A DNA stretch of 47,762 bases, from the NCBI GenBank assembly GCA_947450165.1, contig CANFUJ010000004.1:1-47762 (forward strand), in the 5' to 3' direction. Each line of letters starts with the position of its first letter. The stretch's first letter is position 1. Position numbers and translations under genes: made by a program. The stretch comes from Chitinophagaceae bacterium. Lineage in GTDB: Bacteria; Bacteroidota; Bacteroidia; Chitinophagales; Chitinophagaceae. Shown one piece after another: positions 10,068-38,697 of this stretch. Below the pieces are notes generated by a model, which had not been told where the DNA came from, did no database searches, and saw only the letters and a list, made by a program, of their open reading frames with translations.

Positions 10068-10991
10068 TTAGTTCAATTTAATGATCTCCTCAGTTACTCT
10101 GTAGATTTGACCACTAGCACCGCCAGCATATCCGTATCTAACTCTAAATTCTTTATTAATTGGGTCATAAACATTAGTGCATTGAGCAGCATTTGGCCAA
10201 GCTGAAGCATATCCTGTTGCTGTTCCATCTAAATTTTGTGCTGGTAAACCACTTGTGAAAATAGCTAAAGGAACACTTCCTGGAGCTTGAGTGATCGTCA
10301 AAGCACCAGTTCCTGGATCAACAGTGAAAATAGCAAAATAACCGCTACCACCTAAATCACCTAATTCAGCTTCTACTGAGTTAGGACCAGTTGTAGTTAA
10401 AGTTTTAGCTCTGTTGGTAATTGCTCTAGCTGCAGTTGGGTGATAAAACCATCCATTAGCAGTATAATTACCATCATAGATATTTTTAACTGTGATTCTG
10501 ATTAAAACTTCTTTCATATTGCTAGCAACTTGAAAACCATTGCTTGCGCTAACCAATTCAAGACCTAAACCGTAAGTTAAGTTTGGATCTAAATCAGATG
10601 ATCTTGGAATAGTAATATCAAGTGTATCTAATAATTGACCTGCTTTAATAGTAGCAGTTAAATTAGTAGTATAAGCACTAGCTGGTAACAAAGTTAAGTT
10701 TGGATCTGCTGCAACCAATTCTGGTTTCAAAGCAAATTGAACCGTTACATCAGAAGATTGAGCACCAACTGTTTCTAAAGCTACAATTGGAGAAGCTAGT
10801 AATTGTGGAGCATCTGATGATAACAATCCATAATCAACAGAACCAGCAATTGATTGAGGTAAAGAAACCCCTTTCTTTTCGATAACTTGGATTCCGTAAT
10901 CTCCATTATCAAAACCTTTGTCTTTAAGACAACTAGAGAATGCAACAGTCATTGCAACTCCGAAGAAACTTAGTTTAAAAATATTTTTCAT
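10068..10991 (-). CDS. DUF1735-type surface lipoprotein, third gene of the SusCD operon
   Basis: 307 aa; lipoprotein-like signal (FFGVAMTVAFSSCLKD). DUF1735-like segment with ...GLGLELVSASNG...VLIRITVKNIYDGNYTANGWFYHP. Confidence 0.8.
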   Translation of the reverse strand: MKNIFKLSFFGVAMTVAFSSCLKDKGFDNGDYGIQVIEKKGVSLPQSIAGSVDYGLLSSDAPQLLASPIVALETVGAQSSDVTVQFALKPELVAADPNLTLLPASAYTTNLTATIKAGQLLDTLDITIPRSSDLDPNLTYGLGLELVSASNGFQVASNMKEVLIRITVKNIYDGNYTANGWFYHPTAARAITNRAKTLTTTGPNSVEAELGDLGGSGYFAIFTVDPGTGALTITQAPGSVPLAIFTSGLPAQNLDGTATGYASAWPNAAQCTNVYDPINKEFRVRYGYAGGASGQIYRVTEEIIKLN

Positions 10992-11024
10992 TTTATTTAA
11001 TTTATTTTTTTTTGGTAATGGAAA

Positions 11025-12716
11025 TTATTGAAGATCCCAGAATACTTTAGAAGTAAATACGCTAATAGAACCTTGTGTGTTTACGTTAGCTTCATTGAAA
11101 CTATATTCTGATTGTGGGTAAAACAATCTAACAGGAATTGAAGAAGCAGCTCCTGATAAAATTGACAATTGATTAGCCCAAACACCAGTATTTGTTTGAT
11201 CGTATGAAACAGCTTCACCATAAACGATATCAGTTCTTCTGTAATCAGACCATACTTCAAATGGAGCGATACCATTTAAAGCGAACCATTTTTGAGCGAT
11301 GATGGTATATAAACCACCGTCCACTAAATTACCAATTGTAGGATCAGCAACAGCTGTATAATCAACGTCAGCATATCCAGCATTTCCATTGATGTAAGTT
11401 GTTGCATTAGCAGCAGTTAAACCTAATGAAATAAATGATTCTTTTACCGCGTTCGTTAAAGCTGTTTGAGGATTAACTCCAGGTAACAAACCTCTTTCAG
11501 CAGCTTCTGCTTGTAAGAATAAACTTTCAACACTTGTCATTAACCATGCATCAGACGCAGCTCCGTTTGGAGATAATCCAGTTGCAGGAGAAGTTGAATT
11601 AACTTGGTTAATTGGAGATAATGAATCACCAGTGTATCCAGGTGCAAAACCAGAAACAGCACCGTAAGGAATGCCTTTGTGGTAAGTTCTAGCAGTATAA
11701 ACTGAAGCACTAGAATTGATATCTGGTTTTACATATAATTTGTTTTCTCTTGGATCAGCATTATATCTGTAATATCCAGGAGTAGTTCTTGTACCTAAAC
11801 CAACCGCGAAAGCATTTGCTTTTGTGAAATCTGCTAAACTAGCCAATGTACCATTTTCATTGATAGCAAAATATCTGTAGAATGGAGATGGTTTAGAAGA
11901 AGAAAAACCAGGGTTAATTTTAGCCGTTTCACCAGACATTAAGAAACCTGTTCCTTCTGCGTTAATACCTGCCATGATTGCTGAATAATCAATACCCGTT
12001 ACAGAAGTTGAAGATGCTGCATCAATACCATTTTGGCAATGAATTACCATACGCAATTTTAAAGTATTTGCATATTTAATCCATAAAGTTGCATTTCCTT
12101 TAAATACTAAATCATTTTTTGCAATGTTAGCGTTTGCTGAAGCCGCAGCTGCTGGACTTTTCAATAATAAAATAGCAGTATCTAATTGTTTGAACAAATC
12201 TTTGTAGATATCAATCCCTTTATCGTATTTAGGATTTCTAATATCATTTCCTTGTAATGCTTGGAAATAAGGAATATTTCCGTAAACGTCAGTTAACATT
12301 TGGAAATTTTGAGCTTTCATGATTCTGCAAATTGCTTCGTAGAATCCATCTCCAGAAGCTTTAGCTTTCTGTTGAACGTAATTGTATGAAGAAGCATTGT
12401 AATACAAATCGTTCCAAGGATTTCCACCTGAAGTTGGAAAAGTATTGGTGAAATTGTAAGTTTCTTCTTCATTATCATTTTGATAGCTACCGCTACGAGC
12501 CCAATAGCCCATCCAATTTTGTAAGAATTTCCAATCAGCAGCAACAATCTTCGCAGAAGTTGCAATTGATGAAGGAAGCACGTCTCTGTAATTTAATGAA
12601 CCTGCTGACAAGTTCTCTTGAGATGCATTGATATCGAAATCAGTTTTACATCCGGTAAGTAGAGCCACCGCTGTAGTAGCTATCAAACCTAATTTTTTAA
12701 TATTAAAAAGTTTCAT
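11025..12716 (-). CDS. SusD/RagB family nutrient-binding outer membrane lipoprotein
   Basis: 563 aa; lipobox TAVALLTGCKT. SusD-like segments ADWKFLQNWMGYWARSGSY, YEAICRIMKAQNFQMLTDVYGNIPYFQAL, FLQAEAAERG. Adjacent to SusC. Confidence 0.93.
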   Translation of the reverse strand: MKLFNIKKLGLIATTAVALLTGCKTDFDINASQENLSAGSLNYRDVLPSSIATSAKIVAADWKFLQNWMGYWARSGSYQNDNEEETYNFTNTFPTSGGNPWNDLYYNASSYNYVQQKAKASGDGFYEAICRIMKAQNFQMLTDVYGNIPYFQALQGNDIRNPKYDKGIDIYKDLFKQLDTAILLLKSPAAAASANANIAKNDLVFKGNATLWIKYANTLKLRMVIHCQNGIDAASSTSVTGIDYSAIMAGINAEGTGFLMSGETAKINPGFSSSKPSPFYRYFAINENGTLASLADFTKANAFAVGLGTRTTPGYYRYNADPRENKLYVKPDINSSASVYTARTYHKGIPYGAVSGFAPGYTGDSLSPINQVNSTSPATGLSPNGAASDAWLMTSVESLFLQAEAAERGLLPGVNPQTALTNAVKESFISLGLTAANATTYINGNAGYADVDYTAVADPTIGNLVDGGLYTIIAQKWFALNGIAPFEVWSDYRRTDIVYGEAVSYDQTNTGVWANQLSILSGAASSIPVRLFYPQSEYSFNEANVNTQGSISVFTSKVFWDLQ

Positions 12717-12738
12717 GTTTATGTTTTATTAAATTTTA

Positions 12739-15700
12739 TTAAAATTGGAATACTACGTTTGCACCGAAAATTCTTGTTGGAGGCAAGTTATATGCAGTAC
12801 TACGACCTTGAGCGTTTCCTGTATAAGAAGCGTTTCCATTAGAAGAAAACTCTGGATCAGTCCATTGGTTTGTTTTTGGTAACCAAGTTAATAAGTTTCT
12901 ACCAGTAATACCAACTGTTACACCTTTCAATGTATTGCCTTTAAATAATTTTGCAGGGAATTCATAAGTTAATGAAACTTCTCTTAATTTCCAGAAAGCA
13001 CCACTTACTAAATAGTTAGAAATAGCAGTAGTATTTAAATCACTGTTCCAAAATTCACGGTTGTATTGTTGTGTGTAAATGTTTGTATTTTCTACATATT
13101 TAGTTCCATTGTAGTAAACTGAGTTAGGCCAAACGAATGCACGACGACCGTATTGTGCACTACGTGCAGAAATACCATTGTCATCCATAAATCCACCTAA
13201 TTGATCAGCTACGATTTGGTTTCCACCACGATATTCAGCAACTACTGACAAACTGAAAGATTTGTAGTTTGCAGATAATGTTAAACCAAAGATATTGTCT
13301 GGAGTTGTTTTTCCAAAAGTGGTTAAATTAGGATTTACAGTTGGCATACCATCAGCTCCAACAATAACTTTACCAGTTGCGCTATCTCTTACATAGTCAT
13401 AAACTCTGAACTTGTAAACGGGTTGACCTACGATAACCCAGTTGTAGTTTCCAATTCCAATTTGATTTAAACCATCAACCAATTTGATCACTTTACTTGT
13501 TTGATGTGTGTAGTTCATTTTCAAATCTACATTCAAATCACCTACTTTAACCAATGGAGTTAATTTTAAATCCATTTCTAAACCACTGTTTTTAAATTCA
13601 GCAGCATTTAATTTACTTGTAGTATAACCAGTACTATTTGCTAATTGCAAATCCAATACTTGGTTTGTATTCTTTTGAGTGTAATAAGTTGCTTCAAAAT
13701 TGATTCTGTTTTTCAAGAAACCAACTTCAAGACCGATCTCTTTGTTATATACAAACTCAGGATCGAATTGTCTTCTGTAAATTGAAGTAGGAATGTTATA
13801 TCCTAATGTAGAACCATAAGGGAAGAAAGTTCCAGTTGTGAAAGCTGGATCATCTTGTGCTGCTAAAGGAACGTTACCTGTTTTAGATACAGCTCCACGG
13901 ATTTTCAAGAAGTTAACCACTTTTTGTTTGTCAAATCCAGGAATTACTTTGTGTAATAAAATTGAAGAGTTTACACCTGGATAGAAATAAGAGATATCAC
14001 TATTTGAAAAAGCACTTCCGTCTCTTGGTGCATTTTTACTGTCTCTATCATAAGATCCAGTTCCTTCTAAATAAGCCCAACCATCATAGTTAACACTTAC
14101 ATTACCAAATAATCTTGATAATCTTGAAATAGTAGAACCTGCAGAAACTGTTGGTTCACCTACTCTATTTTGGATACTCAAGAAAGTTGATTGACCAAGA
14201 TTTCCACTGCTAATTCCCCAATTGTTTGTATTTGACTGACGGAATGATTGTCCAAATTGACCAGTAAACGCAAATTTCTTGTACTTAGCATTCATGTTAG
14301 CAAAAAACTCAGAAGTTACTCTGCTGCTAGATGAAGATGCGTAAGCAACCGCTGCACTGATTGTTGTTGATGATGCATCAACTAAAGTCAAATGGTAAGC
14401 ACTTGGAGTGTAAGCTTCTGTTGAAGATTTAGCATCTCCAAAAGTTGCTGATCCACCCAAACGGTAAACAAAATTCAACCAATTTGTTGCTTTATACGTT
14501 AATTCTGCATTACCCAAAACATCATTCGTTTTTCCTCTTTGTCTGTTGATGTCTTTAGCCATGTATGGAGTTCTGTAGAAATTAGTCAAATATGGCGTGA
14601 AATATCCGTTTGGACTAGAGAAATAATCAGTTCTCCAGTTTTTGAAACGAGACAAATCATATTGTCCTGGAGCACCAGTAACATCATAATAAGTTTGAGC
14701 ATTCGCAGTAGTTACATCATATTTTGAATTTGTAACACGTGCATTGAAAGATGCTGCAAATCTGTTATATTCTTTGCGTGCATTTAATGCAATTGTTTTA
14801 CGATCATTTTTATCCCCTGGCATTGTACCACGGATTGATACGTTCTGTGCGCTTAAATAAAAATCTCCAGTTGAATAAGAAACATCAGTTTGATTTGTTG
14901 TTCCTGTTTCAAAGAAATTTTTTCTTCCGTTTGCTACATTACTATATGGCAACAACAATTGTTCGCCATTTGGACCAGTTTGTCCCATTTGTCTGATTGA
15001 ACCATCAAACGCATCTCCCCAAGATTGTTGCTCATAAGGTGTAAAAGTTCCTTGACCAGTATTTGGGTCTTGGTTGTAACCAGAACCAAATCTTGATTGA
15101 AACTGAGGCATGTAAGCAACTTTCTCGAATTGAGTTGATTGAGAAACACTAATCATTGGTTTCATTTTAGTACCTTTTTTGGTAGTAACCATGATTGCAC
15201 CATTAACCCCATCAGGACCATAAGCCACTGTAGCTGAAGCTGATTTCAAAATACTTACATCAGCGATATCATTTGGGTTTAATGAATTTAAATATCCTAA
15301 AGGTGTTGGTACCCCGTCAATAACCAACATTGGTTGGTTGTTTCCAGTTAATGAACGAATACCACGTAATGTGATACGCGTTGTACCTAATACACCACTA
15401 TTGGTTGTAGCTACGTTCAAACCTGAAACTTTAGCTGTCAAACCATTTTGAAGATTTACAGGATTTGCTTGAGTTAATTCTTTTGTTTTAACTGAAGCTG
15501 TAGAATAACCCAAAGATGACTTTTGACGTACTTGACCTAAAGAGGTAACAACTACAGCTGTCATTTCTTGAGTGTTTCTAGCCATATTTGCAATTACCAC
15601 ATTTCCTGAAGGAATAATTGTAACTGCATCATAACCAACTGCAGTAACAGTTAATTTTGATGATGGCCCAGACACTTTAATAGAAAAATTTCCATTAGCA

Positions 15701-15861
15701 TCTGTTTGAACTGCATTTTTAGTTCCAGTTTCGGTTACTGTTGCAAATTTTACAGGTTCACCAGGAATGTCTCTAACTTGTCCAGAGAGCACCTTTGATT
15801 GTGCAAAAGCAAGCATTCCGCTTAGCATTAGCACGGCAAATAATGTTAAAAATCTTCTCAT
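12739..15861 (-). CDS. SusC/RagA family TonB-linked outer membrane protein
   Basis: 1040 aa; signal peptide, CarboxypepD_reg-like domain, plug with GLNVATTNSGVLGTTRITLRGIRSLTGNNQPMLVIDGVP and SVLKSASATVAYGPDGVNGAIMVTTKKG, C-terminal VVFQF. Confidence 0.96.
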   Translation of the reverse strand: MRRFLTLFAVLMLSGMLAFAQSKVLSGQVRDIPGEPVKFATVTETGTKNAVQTDANGNFSIKVSGPSSKLTVTAVGYDAVTIIPSGNVVIANMARNTQEMTAVVVTSLGQVRQKSSLGYSTASVKTKELTQANPVNLQNGLTAKVSGLNVATTNSGVLGTTRITLRGIRSLTGNNQPMLVIDGVPTPLGYLNSLNPNDIADVSILKSASATVAYGPDGVNGAIMVTTKKGTKMKPMISVSQSTQFEKVAYMPQFQSRFGSGYNQDPNTGQGTFTPYEQQSWGDAFDGSIRQMGQTGPNGEQLLLPYSNVANGRKNFFETGTTNQTDVSYSTGDFYLSAQNVSIRGTMPGDKNDRKTIALNARKEYNRFAASFNARVTNSKYDVTTANAQTYYDVTGAPGQYDLSRFKNWRTDYFSSPNGYFTPYLTNFYRTPYMAKDINRQRGKTNDVLGNAELTYKATNWLNFVYRLGGSATFGDAKSSTEAYTPSAYHLTLVDASSTTISAAVAYASSSSSRVTSEFFANMNAKYKKFAFTGQFGQSFRQSNTNNWGISSGNLGQSTFLSIQNRVGEPTVSAGSTISRLSRLFGNVSVNYDGWAYLEGTGSYDRDSKNAPRDGSAFSNSDISYFYPGVNSSILLHKVIPGFDKQKVVNFLKIRGAVSKTGNVPLAAQDDPAFTTGTFFPYGSTLGYNIPTSIYRRQFDPEFVYNKEIGLEVGFLKNRINFEATYYTQKNTNQVLDLQLANSTGYTTSKLNAAEFKNSGLEMDLKLTPLVKVGDLNVDLKMNYTHQTSKVIKLVDGLNQIGIGNYNWVIVGQPVYKFRVYDYVRDSATGKVIVGADGMPTVNPNLTTFGKTTPDNIFGLTLSANYKSFSLSVVAEYRGGNQIVADQLGGFMDDNGISARSAQYGRRAFVWPNSVYYNGTKYVENTNIYTQQYNREFWNSDLNTTAISNYLVSGAFWKLREVSLTYEFPAKLFKGNTLKGVTVGITGRNLLTWLPKTNQWTDPEFSSNGNASYTGNAQGRSTAYNLPPTRIFGANVVFQF

Positions 15862-16204: not shown

Positions 16205-18277
16205 TTACCATGAAAAAATAGTTTCAAACCCAATTTGCGTTTTTTTGCTTCCTTTTATCAAATCATAACCAGTGCCAATGTCTTTTTTGTTCGGATAGAA
16301 GTTTTGACTGAATTTCAAACGGCAATGTATTTTTTTACTCAATGCATACTGAACATTAAAAAAATATCTAAAACCATTGTCGTAAAATGCAGGTAAAGCA
16401 TAACTATTAGAAAGATCATTCTCAAAAGCATAAATCCTACTATCATAATTCGTAGATTCAAAATAGGTAATTCTTACATTTGATGAAATACGCTTCATTA
16501 AAGGCTTATATAATATCTCTGTAAAAAACAAAAAACCTTCGCTTCTTGTCAATGTAGATGTTTTTATGATTTGGAATTCCATTCTACTTCTCAGTGAAAT
16601 GCTTGTGCTTAGCAATTTACTCAAATGACATCTTAAGCTATTTCTTTCAATCTCACCCAATGGCTTTAAGACATAATCATTGTTTTCGCTTGATGAAATT
16701 TGGGAAACTTGGTGTTTAAAGGTGAAAATTGCAGATAACTTTTTGTTCGGTGTGTGCGTTATGCGAATCAAAAAACTCATGCCCGAACTTGGTGCATTGA
16801 TTTGATATTGTAACCATGGCATAGAATAAAAATCTGCTGACATATTTAACTCCCAACGATTTTGTCGTTTTAATGATATCCCAAAATACAACCCTTTTTC
16901 ATTGTTTACACTTGAGTTTTCTGTAAAAGCATTGGCATTTATTGACTGAAATGATTTTGAAATGTTTCGATATAAAATCGATATGTCGGCTTTCCCTGAA
17001 ATCGCAGAAAATAATCCATTAGTCGTTGCAAAACCATTGTAGCTAAATGCGGTTTCTCCAAAAAAATGGGTGTTTAATTTTGTAAAAGAATATCCAATGC
17101 TATAAGATGTTAATCTATTGCCTTTTAATGCATATAAATTGTAAGAAAGATTTTGCTTTTGAAATGGATATTTAAATTCGTAGTGTAAGACACTTGCTGA
17201 AATTAAAATGTTTTTAAAATTACTATTGACATTTATTCCTAAAAGTTGTTGATTTAAATTTTTTTTATTGGCAATTTCATTTTCAGTTCGATGCAAACCG
17301 AGATAATTTAAGCTCGAAACGATAATATCGTTTGAAGAATCTATTGATTTATTTGCATCTAAGTTTCTATTTGAATAAAAAAACACTGCATTGGTTTGAA
17401 ACTTTTTCACACCAATGCAAACCCCTCGATGAAAATTAATTTCATTAAATGATTGATATGGTTTTATGATTTCAGATTCATGCTTAATACTGTTTACTTC
17501 TGTGCTTTTTTTAACCCCCAACGATTGCCACTGAATCAAACCTTGTGCAATATTTACAGTGTAATCTCCGATACAAAGCATTTGTAAAAAACCATTGTTT
17601 TTTTTATATAAATGTGCAGAAATAAAATCAAATCCTTTTGTATTTCTATTAAATGTAAATCTTTCACCAGCATCATTTTCCATTAAAATACCTAGTTTAA
17701 AATCTTGCTTAAATTTTAATTGATATTTCATGGAAATACTTGCTGGAATTCCAGCATATTTTTTTGATTTTGTAGTTGTATCATAAACATAGCCAATTGA
17801 TTTTTCTAAAACTGTTCTTGTTCTTAATAACAATATTTGATTGCCCTCTTTAATTGCCATTGGAAGAGAATTAAAAAATTCATTTTTATTTTTTATACAT
17901 ACAAATTGCTTTATTTTTTTAATCAATTCAATGTCCCAATTTGGAATAGATTGTAATTCATATTTTGAAATAAATTTCCCAAACGATTTACGATAACTCA
18001 AAAAAGATTCAATCTGTGATGACGTAAATTCTCCCAATATTTGAAGGCCTTCTTTCGTTATCTCATTAATATTTAAAAGTCGAATTTCTCTTTCATTATT
18101 TTTTAGATTCAATGTGTTATTGTCAATGTCTATTTCCTCTTCAGTATTTATATTGGTTTCCAAAAGAGTTTCATTCAAATTATTATTTACTTCAGTTTCA
18201 ACCTGACAAAAAACCTTTGTTGTAAATAAAATAGCCACCCCAATTGTAAAAATTATTTTCTGCATTTTATTAATCAT
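16205..18277 (-). CDS. Helix-hairpin-helix domain protein fused to a predicted outer-membrane beta-barrel
   Basis: 690 aa; signal peptide (MQKIIFTIGVAILFTTKVFCQ). ComEA-like HHH segment LLNINEITKEGLQILGEFTSSQIESFLSYRKSFGKFISKYELQSIPNWDIELIKKIKQFV, then a long beta-rich region ending in IGFETIFSW. Confidence 0.8.
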   Translation of the reverse strand: MINKMQKIIFTIGVAILFTTKVFCQVETEVNNNLNETLLETNINTEEEIDIDNNTLNLKNNEREIRLLNINEITKEGLQILGEFTSSQIESFLSYRKSFGKFISKYELQSIPNWDIELIKKIKQFVCIKNKNEFFNSLPMAIKEGNQILLLRTRTVLEKSIGYVYDTTTKSKKYAGIPASISMKYQLKFKQDFKLGILMENDAGERFTFNRNTKGFDFISAHLYKKNNGFLQMLCIGDYTVNIAQGLIQWQSLGVKKSTEVNSIKHESEIIKPYQSFNEINFHRGVCIGVKKFQTNAVFFYSNRNLDANKSIDSSNDIIVSSLNYLGLHRTENEIANKKNLNQQLLGINVNSNFKNILISASVLHYEFKYPFQKQNLSYNLYALKGNRLTSYSIGYSFTKLNTHFFGETAFSYNGFATTNGLFSAISGKADISILYRNISKSFQSINANAFTENSSVNNEKGLYFGISLKRQNRWELNMSADFYSMPWLQYQINAPSSGMSFLIRITHTPNKKLSAIFTFKHQVSQISSSENNDYVLKPLGEIERNSLRCHLSKLLSTSISLRSRMEFQIIKTSTLTRSEGFLFFTEILYKPLMKRISSNVRITYFESTNYDSRIYAFENDLSNSYALPAFYDNGFRYFFNVQYALSKKIHCRLKFSQNFYPNKKDIGTGYDLIKGSKKTQIGFETIFSW

Positions 18278-19127
18278 TAACAGTAGAAATTGAAGTTGCA
18301 GACGTCATACCCAATATTGGATGAAATATCATATTTAATTCCAAATTCATTTTTTTACCAGAATATAAAATCTCAATATTTACCGCATTTGTATTCGATG
18401 TAAACCCTGATTTTAATGCAATTTTTTTATGCACTTGATAGATCATATTTCCAGAAAAAAAAGCAGGTTCATTTGATGTTTTGAAAGAGTTTAAATTCAT
18501 CGAAAATTGTTTTGAAACTTGATAAAATATTCCTGTTCGGATATTTATTAAATAAGCATTGTCTGAACTTGTTTGTTTATCGAAAGACATGTAATGCTCA
18601 GCCTTAATTCCCAATCTTACAACTTTTGATAAATTTGTCACAAGGCCAATTTCTGCAGAAATATATTTTTGATTTAGATGCTTCGAAATATTACTTCGCA
18701 ACAATTTGCTTTGAATGGCCAATGAAGTATTGTCCCCAATTTTTTTTGATAAACAAACGCCTAAAGAAAGCTGATTAAATTTTGTTGAACCTGATTGTTG
18801 TACCATTAAACCCATTTTAATTCTTCCCAATGAAAAGCCTGAAACAATAAGATGATTGCTCAATTCTATTAGATTGAATTTTCTTTCACTATAAATTCCG
18901 ATATTGAATTTTTTAAGCACGTTGAGATTGGCAGGATTAGAGACAATGTGAAAAATATTGAACCCATTTATTTCTCCTGCTATATTGTTCATTAATTTAG
19001 GCGTGTTGAACAATGTGATATTTTGTGCGCATAATTTATTTTTAGGTAGAGCAACTATTGAAAACAACAATATTAAGAGTATATCTCTCGGATTTATTTT
19101 GGATTGATATGGTTTTACAAACTTCAT
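18270..19127 (-). CDS. Predicted outer membrane beta-barrel protein, PorV/PorQ/FadL-like
   Basis: 285 aa; hydrophobic N-terminus. SNPANLN...-type NPA motif followed by repeated amphipathic beta-strand pattern. Overlaps the HHH gene by 8 nt. Confidence 0.55.
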   Translation of the reverse strand: MKFVKPYQSKINPRDILLILLFSIVALPKNKLCAQNITLFNTPKLMNNIAGEINGFNIFHIVSNPANLNVLKKFNIGIYSERKFNLIELSNHLIVSGFSLGRIKMGLMVQQSGSTKFNQLSLGVCLSKKIGDNTSLAIQSKLLRSNISKHLNQKYISAEIGLVTNLSKVVRLGIKAEHYMSFDKQTSSDNAYLINIRTGIFYQVSKQFSMNLNSFKTSNEPAFFSGNMIYQVHKKIALKSGFTSNTNAVNIEILYSGKKMNLELNMIFHPILGMTSATSISTVND

Positions 19128-22802: not shown

Positions 22803-23906
22803 ATGGACAATGAATTAATTTATAAAATTGCACTTACTAAAATTCCCAACATTGGAAATGTACATGCAAAATCATTAATGCAAGTTTTCAAAGAGCCGGC
22901 TCAAATTTTCAAAGCCTCGAAATCTCATCTTGAAAAAATAGAAGGAATTGGTTCTGTAAGAGCAAATTCAATTAAAGCATTTAAAGACTTTGAGGTTTGT
23001 AAAAAAGAAATGGATTTTATACAAAAACATGCTATTGACGCTTTGTTTTTTACAGATGAAAATTATCCAAAAAGATTATTGAATTGTTATGATTCGCCCA
23101 TCTTACTTTACCACAAGGGCAACAGCAATTTGAATGCATCAAAAATCATTTCAATTGTAGGCACCAGAAACAATTCGGAATATGGCAAACAAATTTGCGA
23201 AAAATTCATCGGTGAACTAAAATTAAAAGATGCCATTATAGTAAGTGGATTGGCATACGGAATAGACACCATAGCACATAGAGCTTCATTGAATAATGAT
23301 ATTGAAACAATTGGCATTCTGGCACATGGCTTAGACAGAATTTATCCTTCAGCAAACAAGCAACTGGCTAAAGAAATGATTTTTAAAGGTGGTCTACTCA
23401 CTGAATTTACAAGTGGTACAAATCCAGACAAACAAAATTTTCCAAATAGAAATAGAATTACGGCAGGCATTTGTGATGCTTTGGTTGTTATAGAAACCAG
23501 TAAAAAAGGTGGATCATTAATAACTGCAGAAATTGCAAATGATTACAATAAAGATGTATTTGCATTTCCTGGAAAAGTAACTGATATTAAAAGCGAGGGT
23601 TGTAATAAATTGATACAATTAAACAAAGCCCATTTAATTAATCAAGCCAACGATTTGTTGGAAATGATGCAATGGAATGAGGCGAAAACAATTTCAAAAA
23701 AAAGAAGTCCACAATTATTTTATGATTTCAATGTAGAAGAATTGGAAATCCTCGAGTTTTTTAAACAAAAAGTAGATTGGCAGATAGATGAACTTTGCAT
23801 GCACTCAAAAATGAACAACAGTAAAATAGCAACAATTTTACTTTCATTAGAGATGAATGGTATTATTATTTCTCTACCTGGAAAAATATACAGGTGTTTG
23901 GGTTAA
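22803..23906 (+). CDS. dprA: DNA-processing protein DprA/Smf
   Basis: 367 aa; N-terminal HhH (IEGIGSVRANSIKAF). Rossmann-like core IVGTRNNSEYGK, VSGLAYGIDTIAHRAS, FPNRNRITAGICDALVVIETSKKGGSLITAEIA; C-terminal winged-helix-like region. Confidence 0.96.
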   Translation: MDNELIYKIALTKIPNIGNVHAKSLMQVFKEPAQIFKASKSHLEKIEGIGSVRANSIKAFKDFEVCKKEMDFIQKHAIDALFFTDENYPKRLLNCYDSPILLYHKGNSNLNASKIISIVGTRNNSEYGKQICEKFIGELKLKDAIIVSGLAYGIDTIAHRASLNNDIETIGILAHGLDRIYPSANKQLAKEMIFKGGLLTEFTSGTNPDKQNFPNRNRITAGICDALVVIETSKKGGSLITAEIANDYNKDVFAFPGKVTDIKSEGCNKLIQLNKAHLINQANDLLEMMQWNEAKTISKKRSPQLFYDFNVEELEILEFFKQKVDWQIDELCMHSKMNNSKIATILLSLEMNGIIISLPGKIYRCLG

Positions 23907-31407: not shown

Positions 31408-34400
31408 CTATTGAGATAATGAAATTCTTATTTGAATGCCAGCCCTTGTATTTGTAGTTGGCGCACTTGAAGATATGTATGGTTTAACCCTTCTTTGGTC
31501 AAAGTAAAGTTTTAAATTGATTTTACTATTTAAGAAATAATCTATTGTTGGACTAAACGAAGTTTCTTTGCTTCCTGAAGTTGCAAAGTTATTGTCCTGA
31601 TCTAATCTACTGTTTGCTGTTACATTATCCCTCACCCTAAAATCTACACGGAAGCTTATTTCATTATCAAGCTTTCCACTTTTTTCTTTACTTAAAAAAG
31701 AGGGCAACTTTAACCCGCCAAATAATTTCAATCCTTTTTTACGATAACCAGCACCAATTGTAAATTCGGTACTTCTCACCTCACTTAATTGATAATCATT
31801 TAAACTTAAACTCAATTGACGGGTTTTTGAATATTCAAACTTAGCCTGGAATTGATTTACAAACATCATATCAACCCCCACTAATGGTGAAAATTGCTCT
31901 TGAATGCTAACATTTGGTACTAAGAAAAACGGTATAAAATTCTTTGAACCTGTATCATAAAATGAAGGATAGCCATATTTAGATACGTCTTGATATAGTA
32001 ATGCGGAAGTAAATCCATTCATACTTAAATTACCTGTATAACCATGCGTAAGCGTAAAGCTTGTAAACAATTTATCTAATGGTTTTATTTTAGATAATCC
32101 ATTATAATCTATCTTCCAATTGGGTCGTGGAATAATCGCTCTAAATGGATTTGATCTGATGTTTTTGTTTTCCTGTTTTATCAACCCTACCGATTTAGGA
32201 TCCTGCCCTGTATAAGCTGCAATAAAAGAAGGAATCAACACATCAATGGCGTATTTTCCATAACCATAATAATACCCATCAGAACCAACTGCATTATTGG
32301 TATACGGATTCAATTTCCCCAAACGCTCTGAAAGAATTATCCTATTATTTTCAAAAGTTTTGAATGTAGAAGAAACCCTATTTGGATCAAACTTTCCAAA
32401 CAATGTTTTAAACGCTACATAAGAAACATCAAAACTACCACCAGCATAAGGATTTAAATGTTGGAATGTAGGATTAGTGCCATTAAAATTCGTATCGATA
32501 TATCTGAAAGTTTCACTGTACGTTTTTGAAAATGATTTACTGATGTTAATGGCAACATTCACCTCTTTAAATGGTTCTAATTGAGCTGTCAGTGTTAGCT
32601 TTTGATCTAAATTTTGCTGAATCAAAGAATTGAAACTACTGTCTTTAGACAATAAACCTCTTCGAGCTTGTTGATTGAGCCAATTGGTATCTGGTTGCCA
32701 ACCCATTATGAAATTATAACCAGGCGCCATGCTTTTTACATTCTGGCCAAAAAAACGTGTGCTGTCCATATAACCTGGCAATCGTGTACCAGCATTTTCT
32801 GAGGCGGTAAAATTAACTTGCTTTATACTTGTAAGTAATTTTCCAAAAACTTTCATTCCATTACTAACATAAGGCATTGCAGTTTTGTCTACAATCCGTT
32901 TTGTTTTCAATACTTTCTTTCCTGATTTTGTAAGCACAGAATCTCTAACTTTTGTGATCCTGTTTCTCCATTTTTGTTGATCTTCTTTATTAGACGGCTG
33001 ATCCAATTGACGCATCCATTTTGAATATTGATACAACTTTGTAAAATCCAACTGTACTGTTGCTTCTTTCTGCAAAGTGTTTTCTAATAAATTTCCAAGA
33101 TTTACTGCTAATCTAGAAGCACCTATCCATTTGTATGTAGTTTGATAACGTATGTTGGCTGTTGTCCAATCCAACAATGGAAACTTTGAAGTTGGTAATA
33201 CATAAGACATATTTACGGCCTGATTAAAAATGGTATTTCTACCGCCTTTAAAGAAGTTTTGCCAAACTGTATCTTTCTTTTGTTTTGTATTAATTCTGCC
33301 CGCTGGTTCATCTACTCTTGAATTGTTGGTTGCTGTATAATCAAAGTTTATTGACTTTGTAAAGTTCCAACGCAGTATGTAATCACGCTGCATCGTAAAA
33401 TACTTATCGTAAGTTTCAGGAATGGCGTATTTTGTTTCACCTACACTTCTTGGTTTTATGGCACCAAACTGACGACTGATATCTGCTCTAAAACTCAATT
33501 GATTTGGTAAATAATTAAAGTTTATTTCTTTAATGATATCTAACCATTTTGTTTTTACTTTTTTAAACGAATTTTTAAACGGCTCAAATGGCTTGGGTTG
33601 TGGAGAAAAATTATATCCAAGTGCACCTCGATGTTTTGTAACCTCATTATTTTCAATCAATGGATTATGCGTTTCTGTTTTTATGTACGAATAACTTACA
33701 TCCACATTTTCTATATCATAAATTTTAGGTGATTTGCCATTAGTTTTGGTTTTCTTTACATTGGTAAAATTCACTGTTTTTACCGATGTAAAGTCAATGG
33801 CATTATTTCTAATAGAATCTCTTTTTGATTTTGGAGATGAACTCAGCTTTTCTTTTAATTTGATATCTAAATCGTAAGGGTCGTATTGAGGTGTGCTGGT
33901 TGTTTGTGAATAGCTCGCATAAACAGGAATTGAAATACCCATTTTTTTAGGCAATAGTTTTCCCAATTCTAAATTTGAAGAAACATCAAACTGCATAAAA
34001 TCATCACGGTATCTTTCAACTACACGTTGTTCTAAAGTACCAAACCCGCGACTATGAACATTCGCTGAAAGAGATACCGTTCCTAAATCGGCTAAGTTAG
34101 CATCTACCCTACCAATTGCGGCCCAACCACCTTGTTCATTTATTGATGACAACCTCAATTCGTTTACCCATACCTGTCCGCATGCACTATTTGATGTTGT
34201 ATTTTCTACACCTAATAAAATGCCGCGCACCTCTCCTAAATTGGGATTTCCAATTACTGAGTATGTTTGTCCGTTTTCTTGAAGTTGTTTAAATATCGTT
34301 CCTAATGGTGTTGATGATAAATTTCTGGCCTGTTTTATTTTTGTCAACACATCCAAATCTACATCTAATGAATTTGAAGGAAACCACAAAGAATCATTAT

Positions 34401-37400
34401 ATGCGTCTGTGTTTGGATTTAATCCTGCAGTTAATGGTGTTAAGGTTAATGGAATTCTTATCTCATAATAATTGCTTACAAAATCAGTTCCTAATCTAAC
34501 CACTGCTGTTAGGTCTTTATCCTGAATAGTGTTTGCCGGATTTTGTGCTTGCTCAGCGTGTATATACATAGATAGTTTCCTGAATTGACGAATATCTCTA
34601 TTCGCAAATGTTTGGAAAACACCTTTGGCATCACCTTTTCTAAGGTTGCAAAAAGTCATACTTAATGCTTGTTCATTTTGTAATAGATTCACACCATTGT
34701 TACTTAATGTTTGCACACGTTGGATTTCTTTTGGCGTACGATAAGGGAGTGGTGTACGTTTGTCATTCTCTTCAATATTTACGGCCTCTACATTGAAAGG
34801 TGTAATGCTTGTTGGTGAATACAAACCTGTGGAGTCTATTTTATATTTAAACTTACGCCAAACGTTTCTGGTTAACTGCATCAAGCCAAAGCGCATTACA
34901 ACACTATCTTCAAAACCAGTTAAAAACATACGCATAAAACGTATCGATTTAAAATCTGGTATGTTTCCAATTTTTCGGTCGTAACTTCCAATAGGTATTC
35001 TAAACTGATACCAAGTTTCGTTTCTTGTGGTACCATTTACCAAGCTCACAGGAACTTCTTTTTTATCAACGATAAAGTTATTTCCAATAAGCATTTCTGT
35101 AGCATTCTTCGGCTTTATATCTACGATATATTGGAAGTACTCTTCTGTTTCATTCAACGTATTATCTTTGTTCAAATCCTCTGCATCTGGATATAATGTT
35201 GCTGCAGATGAAAATTGACCGCCATTTGAAATGGGCGAATTACCATCTGGACTATTATAATTTTTATAGCGCTTTAAAATCCCATCATTAGCGTTAAAAG
35301 AACCATCTCTATAGTTTTTATAATTGTCAATAGAAGGATCCTTAATGGCATTTAAATAAATTGGAGAAGTTGATCCAAATGTAGATTCTAATGATGATAA
35401 ATATTCAGCACGTACCCTTAATTCTGCAGTATCCGAAAGTCCATCAAATCCAACATCTTGGTATTTTCTATCATCGGGATTGTTGCTAAATGCGTTGGTT
35501 ACTTGAATTGGGTTTCTTGGTACTTTCCCCCAAATCGTTGTATCTACTGGAGATGGCACATTTGGTGTTGTTAATCCATTTTCATAGAAACGTTTTCCAT
35601 CTTTTAAAACATCTTCTGAAATGTTGCCTAAATTAAAATACAATTTACCACCAGTTGAGTTGCTGTATTGAGGCAAGATAAAAGGGTCTTGTAACCAAAA
35701 TTCAATAAACTCAACATTACTCGTTTCAAAATCGGATTGATCAATGTTTCTCATCAATCCGCCAAACTTTGTGGTTGGGTCGATGAATTTTCCTGTAGCA
35801 TTTACTTTTGTGTTATCCGCCTCATAATTGTACGGACCTTTTTCTTTTGGATAATATGCCAAATCAAATGTTACCAACTGGCTTTCACCAAAACTGGTAG
35901 TACGTTGAGGAAATATTTCTTTCTGATAAACTTGCCTTACCCTAGGATCACTCAATTCATTTCGATCACTAATGGGGTTGTTAGTTGCTTCAAGTTGCTG
36001 TAAAGTTTGTTCGATTTGATACCAAGCAATTTTCGCCCTACTTTTTCCGTATGTCAGATTATTATTTTGTGTCGCCTCTGGAAACAATTCGATTCCGTTT
36101 CTATCCGTAGCATGTGCAGGTGTTGAAGCCAAAGACCAACTTACCAATGGAAACCTCAAATCAATGCCCGATTTACTGCCTTCAAAATCATCGATGTAAA
36201 CCAACCCATTATTGCCTCTTCCAATTTGAGGCGCATGACCTGGCTTTAAATATGCACCTTCAAAATAGGCATTCATACTTGACGGTGCAGTTGTGCTGTA
36301 AAACGGAATCTTGTCTATGATTTTAGTTAAACGAGGTAAATCTTTTCTGTAATTAACATCTAACCCATACATTGTATTTCTAATCGGCTCTTCGTTATAA
36401 TTTACTTTTGTAAAAAATGGTCTTTCACCCAAACGCACAATAGTGCTACCAAAAGAAAGCTGCTCTTTTAAGGTATTTTTCGCCATATAATCAAATCGCA
36501 ACCCCATGTAATTTCTTTGCTGTAAGCCAAACGTAGCATTGTTTTCAAAGTTTACTTGCACTGGAAGTCCAGCATTTAAAATGGCTTGGTTGGTCATTTT
36601 GATGGTTCCCAAATCGTAGTTGATATCATAATCAATTCCTTCTTGTAAGGTTCTTCCACCTGCAGTTACAATTACCGAACCTGGTGGGATGTTGTATCCA
36701 ATGCTAATTTCAGAAGAACCAGAAGTTTTAGCTGTACCCTTTAATACAAATCTATTTAGATTAGGATATTGCTGAGCTACTGCTTTTATTGAATCATAAA
36801 GCGCATAAAAAAGTGTATCTGTTACACTTGCAGGTATCGTTGAATAAATTTGCTTGGCCAAATCTCTACCAAATGGTTCCAATACTGGAAAAACAACTCG
36901 GCTATAATTTGACACTACAGTAAATCCTTCTACATAATCAAATACCCCATCTGGTTGTGGATCCAGCTGACTATTTAATCTATCGAGGTTAATCAAAGAA
37001 ATCATTGGAGAACCTAGATTAATATCACCATATGGAACATATCTTTTTGCGCCAAGACCAGGTTGTTGATACAACACATCTAATTTAAAATCAGAAGCAG
37101 ATAAAGAACCATAACCAACCGTGTACACATTTTTCATCATCAAACTCCAAATGGGCAATGAAGGTCTTTGTGATGTAGCCTTTAATAATTTTAAAAAAAG
37201 GATTTTTTGATTTGCTGAAGAGCTGTCTGGTGGCACATCTTGTGAGAACTCTCCTACTTGGAAAATCCTTCCATTGTATGTGTATTGAAAAGCAACCCCC
37301 AAAACTTCATCTGTTTGAAGCGGCTGACTTAACGATAACATCCCCAATTGCCTATTAAATGTATATTGAGTAGAATCCAGTTTTCTTGCAAATGTTTTTT

Positions 37401-38697
37401 CGAAATCCTGAACTGGACTCAATCCTACCGATTGTAGGTTGTTAAAAATCAATGAGGTATTTCTTGCGTTTGGTTGATTTAGAATTTTGGAGAGCAAATC
37501 ATTTGAACCATTAAACGGAACCGAAAGTCCGGTTAACACATTAATGGTTGGTGCGGGCAAATAAGGGTGAGCTTCTGCAAGATCCGCAAGTCCAACAATA
37601 TCGCGTGTATCCGTAGTAGTTCCATTTTTGTTGGTTACCCATACTTCAATCCTCAATACCTGAATTGGCGCAGTAATGGCAGGCAAATTCGACATTACTT
37701 TGTTGTAATTGTCTTTAAAATATTGACTGATTAAAAAATGTCTATTTTCCTCATATTCATCTGCTTTAATTTCGAATGGAGTTGCAGCTGTTCCTCCTTG
37801 AAGATTTACATTTTGTCTTTGTGATTTCTGATTCGCCAAAACCCCTGTGATAAATAATTTCCCAAATTGTAAAGATGTTTTCAATCCAAACAATTGTTGT
37901 GCACCTGGAATTAGTGTCCCTTTCGCAGGAAACGCCACATTTCCGGCTTCAAATCTTTTTAAAATCTCATCATCTTTACCAGAATAATCCAATTTTAATT
38001 GATTGTCTAAATCAAAATTGGCGAGTGTATTGTAATTAATAGGAAACTTTAATTTATCTCCAATGCTAGCGTTCACATTCAGTTGTGTGTTCATCTGAAA
38101 ATCAAGTCCGCCATTCTTTCTAGCCGATTCCGGTAATGTAGGATTATCTATCTTCTGTCCTTGATATCCCGCCGTAACATCCACATTTCCTTGAGGTGAA
38201 ATTTCAATTTTTCCATTACCAAACAAACGATTAAATAAACCGTCAGTTAATGAAAGTCGTGGTTTTGAAAACTTCCCTCTGTTTAAAATATTGGTGGTGT
38301 TGGAACGCTTTTGAAAATAATCTATTTCTGCCTGACGATTTTTTAAACTCCAATACTCATTGAAAGAATAACTCAGTGGAGTGCGAATGTAACGATTGCC
38401 AATTTTTTCGTAAACGATATATCTTTTGGAGTCATAATCGTAAACAATTGAATCTTTTTGATTGGATGGTTGAAAGTAGTTGAAGCTATTGTAATTGCTT
38501 GTAGATAAATTATCGCCTCTTCTATCGGTGAGTGGATAGGGCAAATTAGTAGAAGCAGCAGGCGTAGTAGTATCTGCTTTAAATAATATTTCTAGTGGCA
38601 AATTTTTACCAAATCCATCTGCGACAAAAACGGTAAACAAAGCCAAGCACAACATTACTTTTAATAATGGTTGTGATAAATTTCTATTAATTGACAT
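31408..38697 (-). CDS. sprA: SprA/Sov, T9SS outer-membrane translocon protein
   Basis: 2429 aa giant exported protein. SprA-like segments such as LTDGLFNRLFGNGKIEISPQGNVDVTAGYQGQKIDNPTLPESARKNGGLDFQMNTQLNVNASIGDKLKFPINYNT and GLVYIDDFEGSKSGIDLRFPLVSWSLAS. Follows ruvA. Confidence 0.95.
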   Translation of the reverse strand: MSINRNLSQPLLKVMLCLALFTVFVADGFGKNLPLEILFKADTTTPAASTNLPYPLTDRRGDNLSTSNYNSFNYFQPSNQKDSIVYDYDSKRYIVYEKIGNRYIRTPLSYSFNEYWSLKNRQAEIDYFQKRSNTTNILNRGKFSKPRLSLTDGLFNRLFGNGKIEISPQGNVDVTAGYQGQKIDNPTLPESARKNGGLDFQMNTQLNVNASIGDKLKFPINYNTLANFDLDNQLKLDYSGKDDEILKRFEAGNVAFPAKGTLIPGAQQLFGLKTSLQFGKLFITGVLANQKSQRQNVNLQGGTAATPFEIKADEYEENRHFLISQYFKDNYNKVMSNLPAITAPIQVLRIEVWVTNKNGTTTDTRDIVGLADLAEAHPYLPAPTINVLTGLSVPFNGSNDLLSKILNQPNARNTSLIFNNLQSVGLSPVQDFEKTFARKLDSTQYTFNRQLGMLSLSQPLQTDEVLGVAFQYTYNGRIFQVGEFSQDVPPDSSSANQKILFLKLLKATSQRPSLPIWSLMMKNVYTVGYGSLSASDFKLDVLYQQPGLGAKRYVPYGDINLGSPMISLINLDRLNSQLDPQPDGVFDYVEGFTVVSNYSRVVFPVLEPFGRDLAKQIYSTIPASVTDTLFYALYDSIKAVAQQYPNLNRFVLKGTAKTSGSSEISIGYNIPPGSVIVTAGGRTLQEGIDYDINYDLGTIKMTNQAILNAGLPVQVNFENNATFGLQQRNYMGLRFDYMAKNTLKEQLSFGSTIVRLGERPFFTKVNYNEEPIRNTMYGLDVNYRKDLPRLTKIIDKIPFYSTTAPSSMNAYFEGAYLKPGHAPQIGRGNNGLVYIDDFEGSKSGIDLRFPLVSWSLASTPAHATDRNGIELFPEATQNNNLTYGKSRAKIAWYQIEQTLQQLEATNNPISDRNELSDPRVRQVYQKEIFPQRTTSFGESQLVTFDLAYYPKEKGPYNYEADNTKVNATGKFIDPTTKFGGLMRNIDQSDFETSNVEFIEFWLQDPFILPQYSNSTGGKLYFNLGNISEDVLKDGKRFYENGLTTPNVPSPVDTTIWGKVPRNPIQVTNAFSNNPDDRKYQDVGFDGLSDTAELRVRAEYLSSLESTFGSTSPIYLNAIKDPSIDNYKNYRDGSFNANDGILKRYKNYNSPDGNSPISNGGQFSSAATLYPDAEDLNKDNTLNETEEYFQYIVDIKPKNATEMLIGNNFIVDKKEVPVSLVNGTTRNETWYQFRIPIGSYDRKIGNIPDFKSIRFMRMFLTGFEDSVVMRFGLMQLTRNVWRKFKYKIDSTGLYSPTSITPFNVEAVNIEENDKRTPLPYRTPKEIQRVQTLSNNGVNLLQNEQALSMTFCNLRKGDAKGVFQTFANRDIRQFRKLSMYIHAEQAQNPANTIQDKDLTAVVRLGTDFVSNYYEIRIPLTLTPLTAGLNPNTDAYNDSLWFPSNSLDVDLDVLTKIKQARNLSSTPLGTIFKQLQENGQTYSVIGNPNLGEVRGILLGVENTTSNSACGQVWVNELRLSSINEQGGWAAIGRVDANLADLGTVSLSANVHSRGFGTLEQRVVERYRDDFMQFDVSSNLELGKLLPKKMGISIPVYASYSQTTSTPQYDPYDLDIKLKEKLSSSPKSKRDSIRNNAIDFTSVKTVNFTNVKKTKTNGKSPKIYDIENVDVSYSYIKTETHNPLIENNEVTKHRGALGYNFSPQPKPFEPFKNSFKKVKTKWLDIIKEINFNYLPNQLSFRADISRQFGAIKPRSVGETKYAIPETYDKYFTMQRDYILRWNFTKSINFDYTATNNSRVDEPAGRINTKQKKDTVWQNFFKGGRNTIFNQAVNMSYVLPTSKFPLLDWTTANIRYQTTYKWIGASRLAVNLGNLLENTLQKEATVQLDFTKLYQYSKWMRQLDQPSNKEDQQKWRNRITKVRDSVLTKSGKKVLKTKRIVDKTAMPYVSNGMKVFGKLLTSIKQVNFTASENAGTRLPGYMDSTRFFGQNVKSMAPGYNFIMGWQPDTNWLNQQARRGLLSKDSSFNSLIQQNLDQKLTLTAQLEPFKEVNVAINISKSFSKTYSETFRYIDTNFNGTNPTFQHLNPYAGGSFDVSYVAFKTLFGKFDPNRVSSTFKTFENNRIILSERLGKLNPYTNNAVGSDGYYYGYGKYAIDVLIPSFIAAYTGQDPKSVGLIKQENKNIRSNPFRAIIPRPNWKIDYNGLSKIKPLDKLFTSFTLTHGYTGNLSMNGFTSALLYQDVSKYGYPSFYDTGSKNFIPFFLVPNVSIQEQFSPLVGVDMMFVNQFQAKFEYSKTRQLSLSLNDYQLSEVRSTEFTIGAGYRKKGLKLFGGLKLPSFLSKEKSGKLDNEISFRVDFRVRDNVTANSRLDQDNNFATSGSKETSFSPTIDYFLNSKINLKLYFDQRRVKPYISSSAPTTNTRAGIQIRISLSQ

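Follow-up and report, generated by a model that had tools for sequence, protein, structure and literature searches.

The window, by which we mean the whole stretch of DNA analyzed (47,762 nt from a Chitinophagaceae bacterium), carries on its reverse strand two overlapping genes for predicted outer-membrane proteins of 285 and 690 aa. The features of the pair are given below with the basis of each assignment.

18270-19127, − strand: first gene of the pair (the partner), PorV/FadL-type 14-strand outer-membrane protein, 285 aa (ORF, AlphaFold2, Foldseek, PorV_fam matches among relatives)
18282-18905, − strand: predicted 14-strand barrel of the partner, residues 75-282 (AlphaFold2)
18270-18277, − strand: 8-nt overlap of the two genes, ATGATTAA (sequence)
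16205-18277, − strand: second gene, helix-hairpin-helix (HHH) barrel outer-membrane protein, 690 aa (ORF, AlphaFold2, family alignment)
18206-18277, − strand: N-terminal signal peptide of the 690-aa protein, approximate (sequence; hydrophobic helix 2-19 in the model)
17900-18079, − strand: degenerate ComEA-type (HhH)2 module, residues 67-126, predicted periplasmic (PF12836; model helices 75-123)
16208-17842, − strand: predicted transmembrane barrel of ∼24 strands, residues 146-690 (AlphaFold2; Foldseek)

Both ORFs and their 8-nt overlap are present as the preliminary description had them. If the 690-aa gene starts at the in-frame Met5 instead, the overlap gives way to a 4-nt gap; the commonest junction among relatives of the pair is a 4-nt overlap. 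The overlap suggests translational coupling, and we infer that the two genes share one transcript.

Predicted structures of the two proteins

The 690-aa protein has the layout proposed for it earlier: a signal peptide and an acidic/Asn-rich linker, then a ComEA-type HHH module and a beta-rich remainder, with the match to PF12836 (HHH_3) staying below the Pfam cut-off (17.9 bits vs 27). The AlphaFold2 model, built from a 78-sequence alignment (pLDDT 88.7, pTM 0.86), places four helices within residues 75-123 and about 24 strands, counting those of nine or more residues, within residues 146-689, so that the expected outer-membrane barrel does appear. Foldseek matched this barrel to MtrB, FimD ushers and TonB-dependent receptors with low TM-scores (0.3-0.4); such matches would identify it only as a large outer-membrane barrel. 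A sequence search of the PDB gave a marginal match to ComEA (E 0.34). An even number of strands, together with the signal peptide, would place the HHH module on the periplasmic side.

The preliminary description had also noted that the GIG of DNA-binding hairpins is lost in this protein and that DNA binding might be lost with it. The first part stands, and the loss is no quirk of the window protein, since none of the 78 Bacteroidia members of the alignment keeps GhG in either hairpin; hairpin 1 is mostly [LIF]-L-[TSN] and hairpin 2 mostly x-[WF]-D. For the same reason DNA binding by the module of the window protein seems doubtful. The second part needs qualification for the family as a whole: eight further relatives, of which seven belong to other classes or lineages, reach 34-68 bits against HHH_3, and hairpin 2 still reads GLG or GIG in four distant-class members. 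(A PF12836 search across the phylum matches mostly other HHH proteins.) As distant classes retain a Pfam-positive HHH, in some cases with GhG, the simplest reading is that the module descends from a DNA-binding ComEA-like module and that the canonical contact was later lost in Bacteroidia. With ComEA itself (TIGR00426, TIGR01259, PF12836; PDB 8dfk) the 690-aa protein shares an (HhH)2 module located outside the cytoplasm, and the resemblance is closer in the distant-class homologues that exceed the HHH_3 cut-off. It differs in that the module is fused to a barrel of ∼24 strands and has, in Bacteroidia, lost GhG from both hairpins; its scores against the two ComEA models are 13.6 bits (TIGR00426, cut-off 53.1) and 16.9 bits (TIGR01259, cut-off 152.35).

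Across the 78 Bacteroidia sequences, conservation is 2.55 bits per column in the HHH module vs 2.31 in the strands. The loops after strands 3, 15 and 21, extracellular in the model, exceed the strands as well (3.18, 3.24 and 3.06 bits), which is unusual for surface loops and would be consistent with an arrangement in which they fold into the lumen.

For the partner, AlphaFold2 predicted a 14-strand barrel (pLDDT 88.7), the FadL-like fold of the PorV/PorQ family, in agreement with the earlier assignment. The best Foldseek match was chain F of the type IX secretion system (T9SS) complex 8gl6 (E 3.3e-9), which we take to be PorV, followed by OmpG and FadL; a sequence search of the PDB with the partner matched none. 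PorV_fam is matched by 51 of 63 partner relatives (best E 1.7e-22), and the window partner scores 20 bits, below the cut-offs of NF033709/NF033710 (90 for PorV_fam, 250 for PorV). Judged by sequence, the partner is thus related to the PorV family at a level below the cut-offs of that family. Its likeness to PorV of the SprA translocon (8gl6) extends to the arrangement of a 14-strand FadL-like barrel beside a much larger barrel; the sequence match is weak and, unlike PorV, the partner belongs to a pair that is not tied to SprA (see below). The BamG model was weakly matched by three of the 63 relatives (best E 1.8e-5).

Spread of the pair and independence from SprA

In a draw of 238 genomes across Bacteroidota, the barrel profile has matches in 201, some of them weak and confined to the HHH. 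We read 80 named loci (Chitinophagaceae, Saprospiraceae, Sphingobacterium, Crocinitomicaceae and Bacteroidales); the partner is directly upstream on the same strand in 63, and every partner match in these loci sits at that position. In the distant classes the genes are adjacent in most loci, and in the two Chlorobiaceae loci read the partner is not next to the barrel. The genes are therefore regular neighbours elsewhere, and the pair is real and old: its neighbours vary by lineage, while the pair itself is constant. The coupled two-gene outer-membrane unit that had been suggested is widespread and kept as a pair, and neither the pair nor the 690-aa protein is described in the open-access literature searched. 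The barrel is missing from all 25 Flavobacteriaceae that were drawn, as well as from several genera of Chitinophagales.

Several neighbours recur. In the window the pair is followed by genes for SusC, a SusD-type protein and a BT_3987-like lipoprotein (10068-15861, − strand), and the SusC/SusD order after the pair is found again in about 24 of the 80 relatives, so there may be a functional tie between the pair and a dedicated SusCD. At one Saprospiraceae locus (L095:4321-6456) a TonB-dependent receptor gene takes the place of the partner and overlaps the barrel gene by 4 nt. In Chitinophagaceae-type genomes (loci L061-L140), genes for DUF3467 and RadC-like proteins are found repeatedly downstream of either the pair or the SusCD genes. 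In distant classes a divergent DUF4835 gene stands beside the pair (typed at L174 and L177, assigned by size and place at L175); DUF4835 is annotated as PorD of the T9SS.

The SusC/SusD genes and the TonB-dependent receptor of L095 would fit a porin or general transport unit in the outer membrane that handles another polymer or a nutrient, possibly DNA or nucleotides taken up as food, with the HHH module structural or used for docking and any link to comEC incidental. Near-universal presence in the phylum, as for a housekeeping role, and the loss of GhG in all 78 Bacteroidia members point the same way. Relatives in distant classes that are HHH_3-positive and have GhG count against this reading, as do the gene order and the complementarity described in the next section, and we regard it as unlikely.

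The wide distribution could also belong to a factor for outer-membrane biogenesis, comparable to the additional BAM subunits of Bacteroidota or to another assembly machine, and the BamG matches and strongly conserved extracellular loops agree with that. A core assembly factor should not be absent from all drawn Flavobacteriaceae and several Chitinophagales genera, however, and the comEC gene order described below is a further argument against such a role, which we hold to be highly improbable.

A comparison with T9SS and gliding had been proposed in the preliminary description. The window contains a full-length sprA (31408-38697, − strand; TIGR04189, 2390 bits) ∼12 kb from the pair; the organism therefore has a type IX secretion system. 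SprA is present in 184 of the 238 genomes, and its distribution departs from that of the barrel in both directions. All 52 genomes of one family, identified as Chlorobiaceae by the FMO protein (five of five tested), have the barrel and lack SprA. Conversely, SprA is present and the barrel absent in all 25 genomes of the family that we take for Flavobacteriaceae, given the close match between the SprA of its member G118 and that of F. johnsoniae. Alignment of the barrel profile with SprA by hhalign revealed no homology. On distribution and hhalign the pair was rejected as a part of T9SS, and the 690-aa protein is neither ComEA nor a T9SS component. A reading in which the pair forms a second SprA/PorV-like translocon accessory to secretion or gliding could draw on the PorV-like fold and weak sequence likeness of the partner, the proximity of sprA in the window and the DUF4835 genes of some distant classes; in view of the same two families and the hhalign result we consider it very unlikely. 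In Chlorobaculum tepidum natural transformation is established (PMC5473272).

Linkage to comEC and complementarity with the Riemerella transformation genes

Competence genes were the other comparison proposed. ComEC is present in 235 of the 238 genomes, so that its co-occurrence with the barrel cannot test a link. In four of the named loci, two of them from Sphingobacterium, comEC follows the barrel (PF03772 was confirmed in two). A targeted search of the Sphingobacterium-type family that contains the genome of one of the named loci, L098, found comEC as the next gene after the barrel in 29 of 30 loci, at a distance of −19 to +62 nt, and the partner upstream of the barrel in 25. In wide windows from 20 genomes of this family, partner, barrel and comEC occupy positions −1, 0 and +1 in 18, 20 and 19 genomes, respectively, whereas the same gene is retained in at most nine genomes at −2, at most seven at +2 and not more than nine at any other position. 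Around the three genes, some of these genomes carry the flanking block in inverted orientation. With the flanks scrambled and the three genes staying together, retention of comEC beside the barrel is well above background gene order, which counts against a general transport unit. Still, comEC was seen beside the barrel in none of the other lineages read; being confined to one family, the order may reflect a single event, and this restriction favours the transport reading.

A second competence gene, dprA, lies near the pair:

22803-23906, + strand: dprA, context gene outside the pair, at the end of a divergent folD-queE-OmpA/PD40-dprA cluster

Many Chitinophagaceae-type loci, the window among them, have this cluster next to the pair, and dprA is in conserved synteny with the pair in 20 of the 80 loci. 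Its proximity may be incidental. No genome of the 238 scored above the cut-off for PilQ (TIGR02515), a strict cut-off passed by one of six matching control genomes, and the genome from which the window comes gave no match at all. We know of no outer-membrane DNA channel of natural transformation in Bacteroidota.

In Riemerella anatipestifer, a transposon screen found an outer-membrane barrel, RA0C_RS04915, and a DUF5689 protein, RA0C_RS04920, to be essential for transformation, along with ComEC, DprA, ComF, RecA and a separate HHH protein (PMC8459023). The first two resemble the present pair in being two adjacent envelope genes of Bacteroidota proposed for the outer-membrane step. They differ in composition (a CarboxypepD_reg barrel with a DUF5689 protein vs an HHH barrel with a PorV-like protein) and in that their role rests on mutants, while a competence role for the present pair is predicted from genomes. 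The HHH barrel is not a relative of the RS04915 barrel (hhalign probability 0.5%). The HHH protein of the screen, RA0C_RS02645 (PMC8459023), is likewise an HHH envelope protein; its HHH, at 236-301, is predicted to be periplasmic, whereas that of the 690-aa protein is borne on a barrel, and with so different a layout it was rejected as an orthologue. Genomes that have the barrel also contain HHH-bearing frames of ∼300-330 aa, which may be relatives of RA0C_RS02645.

The two outer-membrane pairs tend to replace each other. Strong DUF5689 matches lie, in nine loci checked, mostly directly after a barrel-type gene of 850-960 aa, and lineages that lack the HHH barrel mostly have a pair of the RS04915/RS04920 type. 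Among 59 genomes of class Bacteroidia, 20 have the HHH barrel only, 31 DUF5689 only, five both and three neither. A sample of Chitinophagales by genus (genomes at least 90% complete, partly overlapping the 59) gave 29 genera with the HHH barrel only, 10 with DUF5689 only, 10 with both and one with neither. Strong DUF5689 was thus found in 10 of 11 barrel-less vs 10 of 39 barrel-bearing genera (Fisher p 1.5e-4). Under within-family permutation p is 0.026; the complementarity survives control for family and is then moderate. It speaks against a general transport unit and, together with the comEC order, points to competence.

Proposed role in DNA uptake

On the role of the pair, the evidence leans to natural competence over type IX secretion. 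We give slightly better than an even chance to the pair serving natural competence as a unit for DNA uptake across the outer membrane, a reading based on the comEC order, the decoupling from SprA, the complementarity with DUF5689, the GhG of distant relatives, the lack of PilQ matches above the cut-off and the dprA synteny. Against it weigh the confinement of the comEC order to one family, the loss of GhG in the lineage of the window, the moderate strength of the complementarity, the presence of both outer-membrane pairs in the window's genome and of neither in two ComEC-bearing genomes (G192 and G301), the separated partner in Chlorobiaceae and the DUF4835 neighbour in some distant classes. 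Topology, DNA passage and the division of labour between the two barrels we infer as follows. Extracellular DNA would enter the periplasm through the large barrel of ∼24 strands, where the HHH module could guide it or dock the next component; in Bacteroidia, as GhG is lost, the module would probably act by protein contact or by an altered DNA contact. The PorV/FadL-like barrel would be produced from the same transcript as a dedicated partner and might cap or stabilize the large barrel, much as PorV acts on SprA. The DNA would then be handed to ComEC.

A broader proposal, plausible to us if somewhat short of probable, is that most Bacteroidota use a pilus-free importer, the ComEA-derived HHH barrel with its PorV-like partner, that delivers DNA to ComEC, and that Flavobacteriaceae and several other lineages have swapped in the RS04915/RS04920 pair. 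The pair is a concrete candidate, for a whole phylum, for the entry of DNA across the outer membrane of transformable Bacteroidota and Chlorobi, where no recognizable PilQ-type secretin was found. If the proposal is true, it could account for the Riemerella transformation genes being restricted, in the main, to some lineages, and a barrel-based DNA route would be added to the secretin-based one.

Three genomes, G192 and G301 (both from the Sphingobacterium-type family) and G225, have ComEC and neither the HHH barrel nor strong DUF5689; they are either non-competent or use a third outer-membrane route. In the genome of the window itself, a DUF5689 gene lies on another contig (C30, L201:7195-10864) beside a large gene that is truncated where the contig ends. 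This locus is likely related to the Riemerella transformation pair, and with both outer-membrane pairs in one genome the two are not mutually exclusive.
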